64,000 bases of DNA from assembly GCF_014773485.1 (NCBI RefSeq), contig NZ_JACXBP010000005.1, forward strand, positions 310,001 to 374,000, given 5' to 3'. Each line of letters starts with the position of its first letter. Within the stretch, counting starts at the first letter, position 1. Positions 36,667 to 48,192 of this stretch are shown here, one piece after another. This DNA comes from Erwinia aphidicola. GTDB taxonomy: Bacteria; Pseudomonadota; Gammaproteobacteria; Enterobacterales; Enterobacteriaceae. Under the pieces are notes generated by a model. It had not been told where the DNA came from and ran no database searches. It saw only the letters and a program-made list of their open reading frames with translations. Both the position numbers and the translations under genes were made by a program.

Positions 36667-39021
36667 CTATTTCGCGGTGACAACCTGCATGCCGTAAGGG
36701 GCATTTTGCAGGGCCAGAGCCAGAACTTCCTCGATGCGTTTCACCGGGTGAATATCCAGATCGGCAATCACGTTGTCCGGGATCTCTTCCAGATCGCGCT
36801 TGTTCTCATCCGGGATCAGCACGGTTTTGATGCCGCCACGGTGAGCCGCCAGCAGTTTCTCTTTCAGGCCACCGATCGGCAGCACCTGGCCACGCAGCGT
36901 GATTTCACCGGTCATTGCCACATCGGCACGTACCGGGTTACCGGTCAGGCAGGAAACCAGCGCAGTACACATGGCGATACCGGCACTTGGACCATCCTTC
37001 GGCGTTGCCCCTTCCGGAACGTGGACGTGGATGTCGCGCTTCTCGTAGAAATCTGCGTTGATGCCCAGCTTCTCCGCGCGGGCGCGCACCACGGTCAGTG
37101 CGGCCTGGATAGATTCCTGCATCACTTCACCAAGCGACCCGGTGTAGGTCAGTTTGCCCTTGCCCGGAACACAGGCGGTTTCAATGGTCAGCAGATCGCC
37201 GCCCACTTCCGTCCATGCCAGACCGGTCACCTGACCGACGCGGTTTTCGCTGTCGGCACGACCGTAGTCGAAACGCTGCACCCCGAGGAAATCTTTCAGA
37301 TTGTCGGCGTTGATTTCGATATGTTTGATCGACTTATCCATCAGCAGGGTTTTCACCGCCTTACGGCACAGCTTGGACAGTTCACGCTCAAGGCTACGCA
37401 CGCCCGCTTCACGGGTGTAGTAACGAATGATGCCAACGATGGCGCTGTCGTCCACGGTCAGCTCATTTTTCTTCAGCGCATTGCGCTCAATCTGCTTGGA
37501 CAGCAGGTGCTGCTTAGCAATATTGAGTTTTTCGTCCTCGGTGTAGCCGGACAGGCGAATCACTTCCATACGATCCAGCAGCGGTGCTGGAATGTTCATC
37601 GAGTTTGAGGTCGCGACAAACATCACATCGGAGAGATCGTAATCCACTTCCAGATAGTGATCGTTAAAGGCGATGTTCTGCTCAGGATCAAGAACTTCCA
37701 GCAGTGCCGAGGCCGGGTCACCGCGCATGTCCGAGGACATTTTGTCGATCTCATCCAGCAGGAACAGCGGGTTTTTAACGCCCACTTTTGCCATTTTCTG
37801 GATCAGCTTACCTGGCATAGAGCCGATGTAAGTTCGGCGGTGGCCGCGTATCTCTGCTTCATCACGCACCCCACCCAGCGCCATACGCACGTATTTACGT
37901 CCGGTGGCTTTGGCAATTGACTGCCCCAGCGAGGTTTTACCCACGCCCGGCGGTCCAACCAGGCAGAGGATTGGGCCTTTGATTTTGCTGACGCGGCTCT
38001 GGACGGCCAAATATTCCAGGATACGGTCTTTCACACGCTCAAGGCCGAAGTGGTCGGTATCCAGCGTTTCCTGTGCTTTCAGCAGGTCTTTCTTCACCTT
38101 GCTGCGCGCATTCCACGGCACCTGCACCATCCAGTCGATATAGCCGCGCACGACGGTAGCTTCTGCCGACATCGGCGACATCATCTTCAGCTTCTGCAGC
38201 TCAGCTTCCGTTTTGTCGCGCGCTTCTTTCGGCATTTTGGCCGCGTCGATTTTGCGCTTCAGCGCTTCGTTTTCGTCCGGGGCATCGTCCATCTCGCCGA
38301 GTTCTTTCTGAATCGCCTTCATCTGCTCATTCAGATAGTACTCACGCTGGCTCTTTTCCATCTGTTTTTTGACGCGGTTACGGATACGTTTCTCAACCTG
38401 CAACAGGTCGATTTCCGATTCCATCATCGCCATCAGATATTCCAGACGCTCGTTAACGTCGGACATTTCCAGAACGGACTGCTTATCAGCCAGCTTAAGC
38501 GGCATATGCGCCGCAACGGTATCTGCCAGGCGTGCAGCGTCATCAATGCTGTTCAGGGAAGTCAGCACTTCCGGCGGGATCTTCTTGTTCAGTTTGATGT
38601 AGCCTTCAAACTGATTGATCGCCGTACGCACCAGCACTTCCTGCTCGCGCTCTTCGATTTCCGGCGACGCCAGGTACTCTGCCTGGGCGGTAAAATGGTC
38701 GCCGTTATCAGATAACGTAGTGATATGTGCGCGCTGCAACCCTTCCACCAGCACTTTCACCGTGCCATCAGGGAGTTTCAGCATCTGTAAAATTGAGGCA
38801 ACGGTCCCGACTGAAAAGAGATCGTTAATGCCAGGTTCATCCGTTGAAGCTTCTTTCTGAGCGACCAGCATGATCTTTTTGTCATGATCCATGGCGGCTT
38901 CGAGGCAGCGAATTGATTTTTCACGACCGACAAACAACGGAATGACCATGTGCGGATAAACCACTACGTCACGCAATGGCAACACAGGGATTTCAATGCG
39001 TTCAGAACGCTCAGGATTCAT
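36667..39021 (-). CDS. lon: ATP-dependent protease Lon
   Basis: 784 residues from the ATG at 39021 ([20 protein letters not shown]), equal to E. coli. It degrades misfolded and regulatory proteins such as SulA and RcsA in the cytosol. It has an N-terminal substrate domain, an AAA+ module with Walker [10 protein letters not shown] and Walker [11 protein letters not shown], and a protease domain with the Ser679 motif [11 protein letters not shown] and the Lys722 region. The longer frame to 39135 reads through its own promoter and was rejected. It lies downstream of clpX copy A. Confidence 0.98.
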
Positions 39022-39107
39022 AGAGCTCTCTCTTAGTTTAATTTCCGCCAGGGTAAGGGGAACCACATCATCCAGAAAAAGTGCAGTTTGACCCACAGGT
39101 ATCTGAG

Positions 39108-39137
39108 TATATGGGGATGAACGGAATAGATTCAATG
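39108..39137 (-). promoter_or_regulatory. Sigma-32 promoter of lon
   Basis: A -35 TTGAA (39135-39131), a 14-nt spacer and -10 CCCCATATA (39116-39108) on the minus strand. The -10 element is the same as recalled for E. coli lon. Confidence 0.85.
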
Positions 39138-39156
39138 TTGGGGTAACGAGAAAAGC

Positions 39157-39182
39157 AAAAGGGGGAACATTTTCCCCCTTTT
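39157..39182 (-). terminator. Terminator after clpX copy A
   Basis: An 11-bp stem of AAAAGGGGGAA with TTCCCCCTTTT around a short loop. It lies 30 nt after the clpX stop and before the lon promoter. Confidence 0.8.
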
Positions 39183-39211
39183 AAGATAACTGACTGGATT
39201 GATTTGGTTAT

Positions 39212-40486
39212 TTATTCGCCAGAAGCCTGCTGCGCTTCCGGTTTTCCATAAATCAACATCGGCTGGCTTTCACCGGCGATCACCGATTCATCAATTACCA
39301 CCTTCTCGACGTCGTCAATCGACGGCAGATCGTACATGGTATCCAGCAGCGCGCCTTCCACGATTGAACGCAGGCCGCGCGCGCCGGTTTTGCGCGACAT
39401 CGCCTTTTTAGCGATCGCCGTCAGCGCTTCATCACGGAACTCCAGCTCCACGCCTTCCAGATTAAACAGCGCCTGATACTGCTTGGTCAGCGCGTTTTTC
39501 GGCTCGCGCAGGATCTGGATCAGCGCGTCTTCACTCAGCTCGGTCAGCGTCGCCACCACCGGCAGACGGCCGATGAACTCCGGGATCAGACCAAACTTGA
39601 TCAAATCTTCCGGCTCCACCTGCGCCAGCAGCTCGCCTTCGGTGGCTTTCTCTGACTTGCCCTTCACCGAGGCGCCAAAGCCAATCCCGGTGCCGGTATC
39701 CACGCGCTGCGACACCACTTTGTCCAGGCCGGCAAACGCCCCGCCGCAGATAAACAGAATTTTCGAGGTATCAACCTGTAAAAACTCCTGCTGCGGATGC
39801 TTACGCCCGCCCTGCGGAGGAACCGCCGCCACCGTGCCTTCGATCAGCTTCAGCAGCGCCTGCTGCACGCCTTCGCCGGAGACATCGCGGGTAATCGACG
39901 GGTTGTCAGATTTACGCGAAATCTTGTCAATTTCATCGATGTAAACAATGCCGCGCTGCGCTTTCTGCACGTCGTAGTCGCACTTCTGCAGCAGCTTCTG
40001 AATGATGTTTTCCACATCCTCGCCCACGTAACCCGCTTCGGTCAGCGTGGTGGCATCCGCCATGGTAAACGGCACGTCCAGCAGGCGCGCCAGCGTTTCC
40101 GCCAGCAGGGTTTTACCGCTACCGGTCGGGCCGATCAGCAGAATGTTACTTTTGCCCAGCTCAATACCGTTGCTGGTGTCGCCGTTGCGCAGGCGCTTGT
40201 AGTGGTTATACACCGCCACCGACAGCACCTTTTTCGCCCGCTCCTGGCCGATAACGTAATCGTCAAGGTGGTGGCGGATCTCATGCGGCGTAGGCAGGGA
40301 GTTACGCTCACGGTGCGGCGCAACCTCTTTAATCTCTTCACGGATGATGTCGTTACATAAGTCGACGCATTCATCGCAGATATAGACTGACGGGCCGGCA
40401 ATCAGCTTACGCACTTCATGCTGGCTTTTGCCGCAAAAAGAGCAGTACAGCAGCTTCCCTGAACCGTCTTTGCGCTTCTCTGTCAT
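39212..40486 (-). CDS. clpX: ClpX unfoldase, copy A (next to lon)
   Basis: A full-length 424-residue AAA+ unfoldase that recognises substrates and feeds them to ClpP. The zinc-binding domain has Cys15, Cys18, Cys37 and Cys40; Walker A is GPTGSGKT, Walker [10 protein letters not shown], the ClpP-docking IGF loop is GIGFGA, and the pore GYVG is intact. The C-terminus ([26 protein letters not shown] region) is the more E. coli-like of the two copies. It is not next to clpP: clpX copy B, a bidirectional terminator and the divergent clpP-like gene lie between. It probably needs its own promoter in 40487-40792, where only a possible -10 TATATT was seen. Confidence 0.95.
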
Positions 40487-40792
40487 CAGTTAACCTCATG
40501 CCTTATCAACAGACCTGAAGTGGGCTGTCTCATTTATGCGTATCAGCCCTTAATATAGCCCATTTCCCCCGACCAATGGCAGTAAAACTCCATAACACCG
40601 GGTTAAAGGTGCACAGGATAGTGCGCAGAGCGCGACTGTACTAAAAGTGAGCAAGGGGCTGAACATGATGCCAGATTTCGATTTAACATGCTGTTTTAGA
40701 TAAGAAATAGGGGTCAATGTTACTGTTGATTTAGCTGATAATTGGATTATGCTAAACTCTGGTCACTTATGATAATCCGATGGAGTGTAAAC
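40487..40792. other. Divergent regulatory region between clpX copy A and the clpP-like gene
   Basis: 306 nt. On the minus strand a GAGG ribosome binding site precedes clpX copy A, and a TATATT about 65 nt upstream could be a -10. On the plus strand it carries the predicted promoter of the clpP-like gene. No sigma-32 element was found here, unlike at clpP, lon and htpG. Confidence 0.5.
40726..40753 (+). promoter_or_regulatory. Predicted sigma-70 promoter of the clpP-like gene
   Basis: -35 TTGATT (40726-40731), a 16-nt spacer and -10 TATGCT (40748-40753), about 40 nt before the start codon. Confidence 0.55.
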
Positions 40793-41386
40793 ATGCCGCA
40801 AGAGCCAGAGAAAGAAGAAACCGGCCAGGAAGAGAAGAGTTCAGCGCTGGCAGTCAATAAACTGCTGCAGTCACGCTCTATTATCATTTCCGGTGAGATT
40901 AATCAGGCACTTGCCGAGAAAGTTACCGCTCAGCTGCTGATCCTGCAGGAAATGGGCGATGAGCCGATCAAGCTGTTCATCAACAGCCAGGGCGGTCACG
41001 TCGAAGCGGGTGATACCATCCACGACATGATCAAATTCGTTAAGCCGAAAGTGATGGTTATCGGTACCGGCTGGGTCGCCAGCGCTGGGATCACCATCTT
41101 CCTTGCTGCCGAGAAAAATGACCGCTACTCGCTCCCTAATACTCGCTTTATGATCCACCAGCCGTTGGGCGGCGTGCGCGGTAAGGTTTCAGACATTGAA
41201 ATCGAGGCCAAAGAGCTGCTGCGCGCCCGTGAGCGTATTAATAAGCTGATCAGCAATGCAACCGGTCAGCCGCTGGAGAAAGTCGAGAAAGACACCGACA
41301 GCAACTACTGGATGAGTCCGCAGCAGGCCGTTGATTACGGTATTGCTACTCACGTTGTCAGTAGCTGGGATGAACTCGAAGCCTGA
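40793..41386 (+). CDS. Divergent ClpP-type serine peptidase (second ClpP)
   Basis: 197 residues from the ATG at 40793, which has a GGAGTG ribosome binding site. It is a Clp protease family S14 protein, clearly distant from the main ClpP of this window. A complete catalytic triad is visible: Ser97 in VASAG, His122 in MIHQPLGG and Asp167 in EKDT. The oxyanion segment NSQGG replaces the NSPGG of ClpP. The N-terminus is charged (PQEPEKEETGQEE) and lacks the processed propeptide of ClpP. It lies between two clpX genes but on the opposite strand, with its own promoter and terminator. It could form a separate peptidase barrel or mix with ClpP; this is not known. Confidence 0.88.
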   Translation: MPQEPEKEETGQEEKSSALAVNKLLQSRSIIISGEINQALAEKVTAQLLILQEMGDEPIKLFINSQGGHVEAGDTIHDMIKFVKPKVMVIGTGWVASAGITIFLAAEKNDRYSLPNTRFMIHQPLGGVRGKVSDIEIEAKELLRARERINKLISNATGQPLEKVEKDTDSNYWMSPQQAVDYGIATHVVSSWDELEA

Positions 41387-41405
41387 TTTACGTGCTCCGG
41401 GGATA

Positions 41406-41439
41406 AAAAACGGCCCGTATGTTTATACGGGCCGTTTTT
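41406..41439. terminator. Bidirectional terminator between the clpP-like gene and clpX copy B
   Basis: A 15-bp perfect stem (AAAAACGGCCCGTAT with its complement, GTTT loop) with A and T runs on both ends, so it can stop transcription of both convergent genes. Confidence 0.9.
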
Positions 41440-41457
41440 ATTTGCCTCGCTCGCCGC

Positions 41458-42732
41458 TTATTCGCCGGAAGCCTGCTGGGTTTCGTGCTGACCGTAGATC
41501 ACCTTAGGCTCACTATCACCTTCGATAACCTGAGCATCCACCACCACTTTCTCGACGTCGTCCAGCGACGGCAGATCGTACATGGTATTCAGCAGTGCCG
41601 CTTCCACGATTGAACGCAGGCCGCGCGCGCCGGTTTTGCGCGACATCGCTTTCTTAGCAATCGCCGTCAGCGCATCCTCACGGAACTCCAGCTCCACGCC
41701 TTCCAGGTTAAACAGCGCCTGGTACTGCTTGGTCAGCGCGTTTTTCGGCTCGCGCAGGATCTGGATCAGCGCGTCTTCACTCAGCTCGGTCAGCGTTGCC
41801 ACCACCGGCAGACGGCCGATGAACTCCGGGATCAGACCAAACTTGATCAAATCTTCCGGCTCCACCTGGGCCAGCAGCTCGCCTTCGGTGGCTTTCTCTG
41901 ACTTGCCCTTCACCGAGGCGCCAAAGCCAATCCCGGTGCCGGTATCCACGCGCTGCGACACCACTTTGTCCAGGCCGGCAAACGCCCCGCCACAGATAAA
42001 CAGAATTTTCGAGGTATCAACCTGTAAAAACTCCTGCTGCGGATGCTTACGCCCGCCCTGCGGAGGAACCGCCGCCACCGTGCCTTCGATCAGCTTCAGC
42101 AGCGCCTGCTGCACGCCTTCGCCGGAGACATCGCGGGTAATCGACGGGTTGTCAGATTTACGCGAAATCTTGTCAATTTCATCGATGTAAACAATGCCGC
42201 GCTGCGCTTTCTGCACGTCGTAATCGCACTTCTGCAGCAGCTTCTGAATGATGTTTTCCACATCCTCGCCCACGTAACCCGCTTCGGTCAGCGTGGTGGC
42301 ATCCGCCATGGTGAACGGCACGTCCAGCAGGCGCGCCAGCGTTTCCGCCAGCAGGGTTTTACCGCTACCGGTCGGGCCGATCAGCAGAATATTACTTTTG
42401 CCCAGCTCAATACCGTTGCTGGTGTCGCCGTTGCGCAGGCGCTTGTAGTGGTTATACACCGCCACCGACAGCACCTTTTTCGCCCGCTCCTGGCCGATAA
42501 CGTAATCGTCAAGGTGGTGGCGGATCTCATGCGGCGTAGGCAGCGAGTTGCGATCGCGGTGCGGCGCAACCTCTTTAATCTCTTCGCGGATGATGTCGTT
42601 ACATAAGTCGACGCATTCATCGCAGACATACACTGACGGGCCGGCAATCAGCTTACGCACTTCATGCTGGCTTTTGCCGCAAAAAGAGCAGTACAGCAGC
42701 TTCCCTGAACCGTCTTTGCGTTTATCGGTCAT
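41458..42732 (-). CDS. clpX: ClpX unfoldase, copy B (next to clpP)
   Basis: 424 residues with all motifs of an active ClpX (zinc Cys residues, Walker A and B, GYVG pore loop, IGF loop). It follows clpP by 109 nt and so holds the usual clpPX operon position. It is identical to copy A over residues 61-351. It differs at 3, 36 and 60 and at 16 positions after 351 (for example [15 protein letters not shown] near the end). Several of these C-terminal changes depart from E. coli ClpX, so copy B seems the more derived one. Both copies look functional. Confidence 0.95.
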
Positions 42733-42841: not shown

Positions 42842-43465
42842 TCAGTTACGCTGGGACAACACGGAATCCACTAAGCCGTACTCTACGGATTCGCTCGCCG
42901 ACAGGAAACGGTCGCGATTGGTATCGCGCTCGATCGTTTCAATCGTCTGACCCGTATGTTTCGCCATGAGTTCATTCATCATGTGCTTGGTTTTGATAAT
43001 TTCACGCGCATGGATATCAATATCAGATGCCTGGCCCTGGAAACCGCCCAGTGGCTGGTGGATCATCACGCGTGAATTTGGCAGGCAGTAACGCTTACCT
43101 TTCGCCCCTGCGGTCAGCAGAAATGCTCCCATGGAGCAAGCCTGGCCCATACAGATGGTGCTGACATCAGGTTTAATAAACTGCATGGTGTCGTAAATCG
43201 ACATCCCTGCGGTGATCACGCCACCAGGAGAGTTAATATACAGGTGGATGTCTTTTTCTGGATTCTCCGCTTCCAGAAACAGCATCTGTGCGACGATCAG
43301 GTTGGCCATGTGGTCTTCAACCTGGCCAGTCAGGAAAATAATGCGCTCTTTCAGCAGGCGCGAGTAGATGTCGTATGAACGCTCTCCGCGAGAAGTTTGT
43401 TCAACCACCATTGGCACTAAAGCCATCTGAGGTGCAGTTAGTTCACGTTCGCCGCTGTATGACAT
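42842..43465 (-). CDS. clpP: ATP-dependent Clp protease proteolytic subunit ClpP
   Basis: 207 residues from the ATG at 43465, the E. coli length. A tetradecameric serine peptidase that works with ClpX or ClpA. The short propeptide ([15 protein letters not shown]) is followed by [10 protein letters not shown], the catalytic Ser in QACSMGAF, His in MIHQPLGG and Asp in ERDTNRDRF. It has a predicted sigma-32 promoter upstream and follows tig. Confidence 0.97.
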
Positions 43466-43796: not shown

Positions 43797-45101
43797 TCAG
43801 GCCGGCTGGCTCTGGTTCATCAGTTCCTGGAAGTTAGTGGCTTTTTCAGTCACTTTCGCTTTTTCCAGCACGGCTTCAACAGCCTGCTCTTCCAGCGCGA
43901 CATTACGCATGTTGTTCATCAGCTCGTTGTTCTTGCTGTAGAACTCGATGACTTCTGATGGATCTTCGTAAGCAGAAGCCATCTCTTCGATCATCGTTTT
44001 CACGCGCTCTTCGTCAGCTTTCAGCTCGTGGGTACGAATCACTTCACCCAACAGCAGGCCAACAACTACGCGGCGTTTTGCCTGCTCTTCGAACAGCTCG
44101 CGTGGCAGCTCAAGTGCCTGCGCTTCGTTGCCGCCAAAGCGCTGTGCAGCCTGGCGCTTCAGCACGTCGATTTCACCGTCGATCAGTGCAGCGGGAACGT
44201 CGATGTCGTTCGCTTTCACCAGACCATCGATTGCCTGAGTCTTCACGCGGTTACGCACAGCGCCTTTCAGCTCACGCTGCATGTTTTTACGCACTTCTGC
44301 ACGCAGACCGTCGACAGAACCATCTTCAACGCCAAAGCGTTTGATGAACTCTTCGGTGAATTCTGGCAGCTCACGCTCTTCAACTTTCTTCAGCACGATT
44401 TCAAACTTCGCTGCTTTCCCTTTCAGGTTTTCAGCGTGGTAATCTTCCGGGAAGTTGACGTCGATAGTGAAGGTTTCGCCCGCTTTGTGGCCAACAACAC
44501 CCTCTTCGAAGCCTGGGATCATACGACCCTGGCCCATCGCCAGTACGAAGTCAGACGCTTTGCCGCCTTCGAACTCTTCACCGTCTACAGAACCGGAGAA
44601 ATCGATGGTTGCGCGGTCTTCAGCTGTCGCTGCTGCGTCGGTTTCTTTCCAGGTGGCCTGCTGCTTGCGCAGGGTGTCCAGCATGGTGTCAACGTCAGCA
44701 TCAGTCACTTCAACAACCGGTTTTTCAACTTCGATTGCGTCCAGACCTTTCAGCTCAACTTCCGGATAAACTTCGAACTCTGCAGAGAAAGTGAAGTCTT
44801 CGCCGATTTTGTATTCGCCCGGCACATACTGAGGTGCGCCAGCCGGATTGATTTTTTCTTTGATGATCGCGTCAACAAAGTTGCGCTGCATCAGATCGCC
44901 CAGAACATCCTGGCGAACGGAAGCACCGTAACGCTGTGTCACTACGCTCATCGGCACTTTTCCTTTGCGGAAACCGTCGATGCGCACTTTCTTAGCTACG
45001 CTGACCAGCTCACTTTTCACCGCGTTCTCGATCACATCTTTATCAACGGTAATCGTTACGCGACGGCCCAGGCCCTGAGTTGTTTCTACTGAAACTTGCA
45101 T
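43797..45101 (-). CDS. tig: Trigger factor
   Basis: A 434-residue ribosome-bound chaperone with PPIase activity, acting on nascent chains. The ribosome-docking motif GFRKGKVP is near residues 43-50, the FKBP-type PPIase domain lies around 150-245 ([20 protein letters not shown]), and helical chaperone arms follow. It is between bolA and clpP as in E. coli, but separated from bolA by an accessory island. A striking perfect hairpin sits in its leader. Confidence 0.97.
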
Positions 45102-46824: not shown

Positions 46825-48192
46825 ATGAAATTATTTTCAATAATAACCACTTCATTAATCGTTATTTTTTCATCATCAACCTCACAGGCAAAAGTAAATT
46901 TAAAAAATGAAGCATATGTAGAATCCATTTTTTCAGCCACCCGAAAGGCATGGCCAGCTCTGGAGAAGGTATGGGAAACTGACATATTTAGAAAACTCAG
47001 ACTGGTTGTTGCCGATGACAAAAATGCCTGGGCCATCGACAGCCAGACTCTTATTAAAATCCCTTACAGCGAAATTCAGCGGCGAAACTTATCCATAGAG
47101 TATATGCATTATCAGATAATTCAGTGGCCTGATGGTCGGCCGACACTGTATGTGAGTTTGGGAACTAAACTGCCATATGAAGAGGAGCTCCGCCTTCAGA
47201 ACGAGAAAAATCCCGTGCCAGAAATTTTCAACGTCGCAACTCATGAAGCTTTTCATTTTTTTGTGCAAGATGAGACATGGAAAAGAACCGGGTCAGATAA
47301 TGTTTCTCGGGCAACCCCCTTCCCGGTTCAGGCCGCAGGGCGATATTACCGTAACAGCATCATACGGGCATTATACGCGGCACTCGACGGGACTGAAAAC
47401 TCGCTGGGCCACGCAAGATATTGGTTTGATCTGTGGAAAGAACTTTACCCCGAGGATGCAAGGAGAATACGTCAAACAGATATTAACGAAGGCAGTGCGA
47501 AATATATTGAAATCATTGCGGAGATTATTTCACAAGGCAGTAATATAGACACCTTAGAGTTTCGACATGCGTTTACCAGAAAAATGAAAGATGATGCCAC
47601 TCTCATACACACGCAATCTGATACAGAAAGTTATGCGATTGGCGCATTATCGGGATTTATTCTTAATATGAAAGAAAGGGAATGGCAATCACGTGTTGCC
47701 CAGGGAACCCCGCCCCTGGATATCCTTCTGGAAAATGTCCCCCCTGTTGTACAACAAAGGGACAGAGAAATCGGAATAATGTTGCGTAAAAAAATAAATG
47801 AAATTAATAGCACGCTGGCCTCTGCAATTGATAGATTTGAACAAGCGTACCATTATCGAGGAGCAACAAGAATCTTAATTTGTTCAAGTTTATCAGGAAG
47901 TTACTCAATCAGCCATGGCTTTTTCCGTTCCAAAAAGATCCCTTATGACCTTATGGTGGGATTAGATTCATCAGCGACCTGGCCCGGTGGAAGTTACAGT
48001 TTACAGCAGGTCGTAGCGGCTGAAATTAATAACCCCTCAGTTTGCAACGATACCGGTGGGTTAATGGTTATTTATCCAGGAAGAATTCCGCCTGCCAAAG
48101 ATGGACGATTGATATTAAATACGAATAAAATATCGCTTAACATTCCTTACCCTGAGAATATTGATACTAAGCGAGAAATTCAATTGCCGTAA
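46825..48192 (+). CDS. Secreted protein with HExxH metallopeptidase signature
   Basis: 455 residues, not recognised as a named family. It has a signal peptide (about 1-22, ending SQA/K). A zincin motif, HEAFH, is at residues 140-144 (THEAFHFF), and a downstream NEGSAKYIE at 221-229 offers Glu222 as third zinc ligand, the layout of gluzincin metallopeptidases. The C-terminal part (about 345-440) has a GSYSISHGFF stretch and two cysteines (Cys353, Cys407). Ribosome binding is weak (GGTGA). The gene is AT-rich and stands alone in the tig-bolA island. Function is inferred from the motif only. Confidence 0.75.
   Translation: MKLFSIITTSLIVIFSSSTSQAKVNLKNEAYVESIFSATRKAWPALEKVWETDIFRKLRLVVADDKNAWAIDSQTLIKIPYSEIQRRNLSIEYMHYQIIQWPDGRPTLYVSLGTKLPYEEELRLQNEKNPVPEIFNVATHEAFHFFVQDETWKRTGSDNVSRATPFPVQAAGRYYRNSIIRALYAALDGTENSLGHARYWFDLWKELYPEDARRIRQTDINEGSAKYIEIIAEIISQGSNIDTLEFRHAFTRKMKDDATLIHTQSDTESYAIGALSGFILNMKEREWQSRVAQGTPPLDILLENVPPVVQQRDREIGIMLRKKINEINSTLASAIDRFEQAYHYRGATRILICSSLSGSYSISHGFFRSKKIPYDLMVGLDSSATWPGGSYSLQQVVAAEINNPSVCNDTGGLMVIYPGRIPPAKDGRLILNTNKISLNIPYPENIDTKREIQLP

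Follow-up and report, generated by a model that had tools for sequence, protein, structure and literature searches.

The window analysed here, a stretch of 64,000 nucleotides (nt) from Erwinia aphidicola, corresponds to positions 310001-374000 of the 425-kb contig NZ_JACXBP010000005.1 and carries two complete clpX genes, clpX_B and clpX_A, with a second ClpP-type peptidase gene, clpP2, between them. The minus strand reads tig, clpP1, clpX_B, clpX_A, lon, and clpP2 lies on the plus strand. The textbook machine is the ClpXP of Escherichia coli, which has a single ClpP. Why would a plant-associated relative carry two genes for each component? We consider it fairly probable that the locus is inherited together as a module for a mixed-ring ClpP1-ClpP2 peptidase, with the two ClpX copies serving dosage or regulation. 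Such a machine of two unlike rings, which the locus suggests, has no counterpart in E. coli.

The layout is real and recurrent. Open reading frames (ORFs) and family models bear out the original prediction of a clpP, clpX, clpP-like, clpX, lon run, and all four Clp proteins score above their family-model cut-offs (Table 1). The contrast drawn with E. coli, a single clpX and a single clpP, holds in the five records listed; the region is matched in 5374 of 5426 E. coli genomes, at a median of one place. An assembly artefact is ruled out, as the layout recurs in several genomes on megabase contigs (3.8 Mb in G395, 4.7 Mb in G413 and 4.8 Mb in G415) with copies that differ from each other; since their sequences differ, the clpX genes of the window are not one copy read twice. 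They lie more than 70 kb from the contig ends, and no further clpX match of equal strength was found elsewhere in the genome.

A check of relatives, as first proposed, found clpX-clpP2-clpX in 16 of 37 Erwinia genomes and in one genome of another genus (G696); these 17 are called carriers below. A clpP2-like protein, counted in the genus at E <= 1e-60, occurs in 17 of the 37. Sixteen of these, among them the window genome, are at 86-100% identity, and each has a clpX on either side of clpP2, between clpP1 and lon. The seventeenth match (G401, locus L063) is a 52% relative with a Ser-His-Asp triad and an acidic sensor, without clpX nearby. Two clpX genes are found in the 16 carriers and in G414, one in 17 genomes, and split clpX in three (G405, G406, G423), where the pieces end exactly at contig edges. 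These three have no clpP2 match and a carrier-type clpP1, and their contig breaks match the effect of a near-identical repeat on short-read assembly. Among 392 genomes of the family, 44 have a clpP2 match, three of them at 86-100% identity and with the layout (G000, G412 and G696); among the other 41, none of 28 loci inspected has a clpX nearby, over 1.5 kb or more wherever the contig extends that far. At least seven named records among the 80 matches listed have the layout (E. rhapontici, E. piriflorinigrans, E. phyllosphaerae, Erwinia sp. 198, Erwinia sp. JUb26, 'Pantoea coffeiphila' and an uncultured Erwinia), and these seven are already within the counted genomes; the other 73 have no clpX in the flanks examined, which reach up to 5 kb. 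Nothing on this locus appeared among the literature matches listed for Erwinia clpX or clpP duplicates, a search that most subscription papers fall outside. In one carrier (G394, L228/L062, Erwinia sp. 198) a gene of ~360 amino acids (aa), which we take to be of an acyltransferase-like family, is inserted between clpX_B and clpP2.

What kind of peptidase is ClpP2? It exceeds the cut-off of NF009205/PRK12553 (S14 peptidase; 269.7 against 228 bits) and matches PF00574 at 218.8 bits. Its best solved match is 4jcq/4ryf (E 6e-76), the 4jcq sequence being the ClpP of a Listeria record, and its identity to Listeria ClpP is 64.4% over 88%. The next-best structures are 9ndj and 7m1l (E 1e-53), which we take to be Pseudomonas aeruginosa ClpP2. 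The AlphaFold monomer model at this locus has a predicted local distance difference test score (pLDDT) of 86.5. In the alignment, the third triad column holds Asn171 in ClpP2, Asn in native Listeria ClpP1 and Asp in 4jcr, and Asn replaces the catalytic Asp in the window and in all 17 carriers; the Ser and His of the triad are retained in 112 of 112 related loci tabulated. The oligomerization sensor reads Asp169-Ser170-Asn171 (within DTDSN) in 17/17 carriers, with loss of the sensor Arg, and Asp-Arg-Asn (DRN) in 87 of the 112 loci, some of which share a genome; the 112 include the seven named carriers. Because Ser170 replaces the sensor Arg, ClpP2 is a diverged relative of the Listeria ClpP1 type and not a plain member. 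The apical pocket, at positions that we presume to correspond, is KFITYL in ClpP2 versus YYIMFL in several enterobacterial ClpP1 proteins. The ratio of nonsynonymous to synonymous substitution (dN/dS) in clpP2 is about 0.036 (160 codons in 17 carriers, pairs with unusable dS excluded), and clpP2 is a conserved peptidase of the Listeria ClpP1 type under purifying selection.

In a ClpP2 protein tree built by a quick method, the 17 carriers form one clade (support 97). Nearest to it are a genome of a different family (G163, 82% identity), a Brenneria sp. and four enterobacterial rows (support 81), with clostridial, Vibrio and Xenorhabdus proteins further out; a separate group is made up of 51 other rows, enterobacterial wherever they are named. 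Given this placement, clpP2 was probably acquired horizontally. A phage- or plasmid-borne Clp cassette was rejected as the source, a judgement made without a separate search for insertion sequences, as in each collection the best clpP2 match stays at 64.4% identity. A level of 60% or more is reached by four of the 173 matching plasmid records (two from Listeria and two from Azospirillum) and by four of the 415 matching phage records, each labelled Listeria phage. Two Listeria 'plasmids', NZ_CP030101.1 (2.9 Mb) and NZ_LR134403.1 (407 kb), are chromosome-like and probably mislabelled, and a 4.1-kb plasmid record labelled Staphylococcus epidermidis (AP029235.1) has a gene for a ClpP with 55.6% identity to clpP2.

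The ordinary subunit is altered as well. In E. coli ClpP, Q145-A146-T147 is the QXT motif at the ring interface and R184 is an oligomerization-sensor residue, and ClpP tetradecamers are held together by interdigitating handle domains and mutual sensor contacts (PMC9035409, excerpts). The ClpP1 sensor is T[NQ]RD in 17/17 carriers versus TERD in 18/18 non-carriers (16 of the genus and two outgroups); Asn or Gln183 thus stands for Glu183 at the acidic sensor position and Arg184 is kept. The QXT motif is QAS instead of QAT in all 17 carriers. Eleven ClpP1 sites are fixed between the 16 Erwinia carriers and 17 non-carriers (142, 150, 157, 159, 162, 169, 175, 177, 183, 204 and 205), and nine of the 11 fall within residues 136-185, a region picked after inspection of the data (Fisher p 5.9e-5; p 0.010 when the background is the sites that vary among non-carriers). 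A distinctive ClpP1 allele is present in all 17 carriers examined, and most of its fixed changes lie at or close to the contact between the rings. A DNA pattern for the non-acidic sensor, limited to CGN arginine codons and run on the 392 family genomes, occurs in 15 and lies inside clpP1 in three, which are exactly the three module genomes.

The clpP1 allele and its flanks have different histories. Carriers form one clade (support 100/99) in the clpP1 tree of 37 rows and again when the last 216 nt are taken alone; G427 is excluded from this tree and from the fixed-site count for its length, and G401 and G426 are without a clpP1 sequence in the comparisons. Approximately unbiased (AU) tests, which presume a group named before the tree is seen, reject carrier monophyly for lon (35 rows; p 0.0007, or 0.005 without G696) and for tig (p 0.0017); G405, G406 and G423 are without lon and so are absent from the lon tree. 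The genome of the other genus is instructive. Three sampled congeners of G696 have no clpP2 match, and its clpP1 is a mosaic: the first 206 nt match theirs at ~96% identity, the part after nt 402 at 73-75%, and most of the carrier residues fall in this foreign part. A block starting inside clpP1 therefore moves by recombination, and the best reading is of a module inherited as a unit, running from a point inside clpP1 to clpX_A.

What do the two ClpX copies contribute? Both are motif-complete, as originally claimed, with the zinc finger, Walker A, Walker B, GYVG pore loop, RKH and IGF (motif names that we assume) at equal positions. In the window they differ at 19 residues, none of them within 61-351, and at 56 of the 1275 nt. 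In the 16 genomes where both clpX genes are full-length and equally long (15 carriers and G414; clpX_A of G411 and of G394 are excluded for a broken frame and for length, respectively), the copies differ at 11-93 of 1272 nt, most densely in the last twelfth of the gene in 11 of the 16. Mean distance across the core (nt 211-954) is 0.015 within genomes versus 0.118-0.119 between them, and the lon-side core is nearer its own B copy than any other genome in 14 of 16; the two exceptions, the window genome and G396, are one species. This within-genome homogenisation is gene conversion, and the copies are kept alike by it, yet with differing promoters and neighbours. Between 32 carrier copies and 17 single copies, ClpX shows a single fixed difference, at site 406 in the tail. 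A fixed carrier change in the ClpX docking loop was sought and not found, the nearby sites 258, 263, 266 and 279 differing in the majority only. With residues 61-351 identical and the core homogenised, the pair does not fit the Myxococcus-like kind of duplicated ClpX, in which paralogues have diverged in substrate or docking regions.

The original prediction gave clpP2 a promoter and a terminator of its own. A candidate promoter, TTGATT-N16-TATGCT, ends 39 nt before the ATG; its -10 TATGCT is present in 17/17 carriers and the -35 TTGATT, 16 bp upstream, in 15/17. This conservation supports the promoter, although a consensus scan reported none on the clpP2 strand. On the opposite strand, a -10-like TATATT, present in 15/17 carriers, ends 65 nt before the clpX_A ATG, so that the clpX_A element diverges from the clpP2 promoter, and clpX_B follows clpP1. 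The terminator exists as a hairpin at ~41405-41440, absent from the output of the terminator scan. It folds strongly in both orientations (z -5.06 and -6.13) and for this reason probably serves clpP2 and clpX_B together. The same gap in other carriers holds inverted repeats with T runs, by eye.

How might these parts work together? By analogy with Listeria, a heptameric ClpP2 ring would stack on a ClpP1 ring to give a mixed ClpP1-ClpP2 barrel. Listeria ClpP1 alone forms mainly inactive heptamers and is active only when complexed with ordinary ClpP (PMC5361862, excerpts), which makes a shared hetero-ring likelier than a separate ClpXP2. In the mixed pair, ClpP1 Arg184 would meet ClpP2 Asp169, and neither homo-pair would have an Arg-acid contact. 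Hetero-assembly would be favoured because ClpP1 keeps the Arg without the acid and ClpP2 the Asp without the Arg, a complementarity that we infer from the residues together with excerpts of a review (PMC9035409). ClpX would dock mainly on the ClpP1 face, as the apical-pocket residues of ClpP2 are changed. The second clpX would supply extra or differently timed ClpX, the two copies being expressed from two promoters, and would not be an ATPase with a specificity of its own. A bolder version is possible, if rather doubtful: carriers may have given up a self-sufficient ClpP, with the sensor charges split between the two proteins so that an active 14-mer assembles well only from mixed rings. The split pair, together with two clpX copies under gene conversion, would then pass from species to species as a single recombination block.

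The closest known system is Listeria monocytogenes ClpP1/ClpP2 (LmClpP1; PDB 4jcq, 4ryf and 6sfx), which resembles the Erwinia pair in 64% identity, the Ser-His-Asn triad and a canonical ClpP partner. Listeria ClpP1 likewise has, by eye, Thr where canonical ClpP has Met, at what we take to be a pocket position. It differs in that the 6.5-kb Listeria region inspected holds no clpX, whereas the Erwinia clpP2 sits inside clpPX-lon between two clpX genes, and in that the Erwinia sensor Arg is Ser and the canonical partner is without the sensor acid. The ClpP2 of 7m1l and 9ndj, presumably of P. aeruginosa, is also a second ClpP beside a canonical one in a gammaproteobacterium, but keeps the catalytic Asp and the sensor Arg. 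In Mycobacterium tuberculosis the ClpP subfamilies and gene order are presumably different, and we assume that a second clpX is absent. Its ClpP1P2 is alike in having two ClpPs with altered QXT motifs (SAA and QFS) that are active only as a mixed tetradecamer (PMC9035409, excerpts). Multiple ClpXs are called rare in bacteria in the accessible part of a Myxococcus xanthus study (PMC11423568); that species, with two ClpP and three ClpX, likewise has more than one of each per cell, but its ClpX proteins are 42-65% identical, scattered and functionally diverged, while the Erwinia copies are 96% identical, adjacent and gene-converted.

Several points weigh against a mixed-ring module. The joint assembly and activity of ClpP1 and ClpP2 are proposed by analogy. 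Excerpts on Listeria are at odds over docking: ClpX 'does not seem to bind' the ClpP1 ring (PMC5361862), or 'can bind to either' ring (PMC9035409). QAS also occurs in 2 of 18 non-carriers. Residues 136-185 were picked once the data had been seen; a narrower 136-172 holds six of the 11 fixed sites (p 0.005; p 0.049 against the variable-site background). Taken by itself, the stretch of the first 402 nt in clpP1 fails to unite the carriers (two changes), and the AU tests presume a group fixed in advance of the tree. Protein evolution is quicker in carriers for ClpP1 (dN/dS 0.023 versus 0.008) and for ClpX (~0.05 versus 0.011), a possible relaxation. Independent pairs number two on well-supported branches of the lon tree and four on all branches, too few for the sign test (p 0.5) to inform. 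The parts of the module can be separated by loss, as two genomes show: G411 (L214) has a clpX_A frame broken near codons 277-295 with clpX_B intact, and G414 (L213) has two clpX genes, a 0.4-kb spacer without clpP2 and a non-carrier-type clpP1. The G414 spacer retains parts alignable to the divergent control region, and its state looks like that after loss of clpP2, an order of events that the sequence suggests.

Nor does sensor loss in one ClpP force loss in its partner. Four Vibrio/Enterovibrio ClpP2 proteins (DYN, Tyr for Arg) and one from Xenorhabdus (NHN, His) come from genomes with a normal ClpP1, which also counts against the module. A general rule that ClpP2 loses the Arg and ClpP1 the acid was tested on 22 genomes outside Erwinia and fails there; the sensor acid is kept in all 23 ClpP1-type genes of these genomes. 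The loci L128, L139, L144 and L147 are the Enterovibrio/Vibrio relatives with Tyr, and in the two Vibrio records among them clpP2 lies ~4 kb from tig.

Could ClpP2 instead be a brake? As a regulatory or damping subunit in ClpP1, it would lower or alter ATP-dependent proteolysis, for example with one ClpX face blocked. The Asn triad, the altered apical pocket and the lost sensor Arg fit such a role, but the Ser and His kept in every tabulated locus and the low dN/dS of clpP2 do not, and we regard it as unlikely. Hitchhiking would have clpP2 arrive and clpX duplicate by chance, with ClpP1 differences that are linked only and clpX copies without a role persisting by gene conversion. The close neighbourhood of clpP1 and clpP2 means that linkage can make much of the association, a further point against the module; the mosaic transfer in G696, the states of G414 and G411 and the quicker evolution of ClpX and ClpP1 also favour hitchhiking. 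Against it stand the conserved promoter elements, the low dN/dS of clpP1, clpP2 and both clpX, the enrichment of fixed ClpP1 changes in 136-185, the absence of a TERD-type clpP1 from all 17 carriers and the sensor acid kept otherwise, in the 18 non-carriers and the 22 other genomes, so that we hold it to be quite improbable.

Least probable of all is the reading first proposed, two ClpXP machines with different substrates, in which a ClpP2 homo-tetradecamer pairs with one ClpX and ClpP1 with the other: the duplicated clpX and extra ClpP, two complete genes of each with separate promoters, are real and conserved, but the ClpX side is unsupported, since AAA+ cores that are identical and gene-converted give no sign that either ClpX serves just one ClpP, the Asn triad and altered pocket of ClpP2 match the type described as mainly inactive heptamers alone, and ClpP1 has changed in step with clpP2. 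If two machines exist, their difference lies in ClpP ring composition and promoters.

Under the mixed-ring reading, a close relative of E. coli seems to have gone over to a mixed-ring ClpP, and compensating changes can be seen in the ordinary subunit. Since some sister species have the module and others lack it, they would offer a natural before-and-after comparison of a protease that turns from homo- to hetero-oligomeric, without engineered variants. For work on ClpXP-dependent RpoS turnover in Erwinia (reviewed in PMC12910134, excerpts), a clpX deletion in a carrier would need to take out two genes.

Table 1. Features of the clp locus, in window coordinates. Family-model cut-offs are 370.75 bits (TIGR00382) and 228 bits (NF009205).
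Feature	Position	Strand	Description
tig	43797-45101	-	flanking gene outside the co-inherited block
clpP1	42842-43465	-	housekeeping ClpP, 207 aa, carrier-type allele; NF001368 365.5 bits
clpP1 motifs			QXT motif = QAS; oligomerization sensor N183-R184; catalytic D185
clpX_B	41458-42732	-	copy adjoining clpP1, 424 aa; TIGR00382 704.1 bits
hairpin	41405-41440	both	between convergent clpP2 and clpX_B; terminator-like
clpP2	40793-41386	+	ATG to stop, 197 aa, Listeria-ClpP1-type peptidase; NF009205 269.7 bits
clpP2 residues			S97-H122-N171; sensor D169-S170; QXT position = KVS
divergent control region	40487-40792		between clpP2 and clpX_A; holds promoter elements of both genes
clpX_A	39212-40486	-	lon-side copy, 424 aa; TIGR00382 709.2 bits
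lon	36667-39135	-	ORF call; flanking gene outside the co-inherited block; usual start probably further inside the called ORF

An Rfam match to the small RNA sraA (39097-39191, plus strand, 68.1 bits) overlaps the start of the lon ORF and the gap between clpX_A and lon. Beyond tig, a 455-aa ORF (46825-48192, plus strand) begins, by eye, with a signal-like stretch and matches nothing in Pfam at E 0.001, and a DUF2975 gene lies between it and tig.

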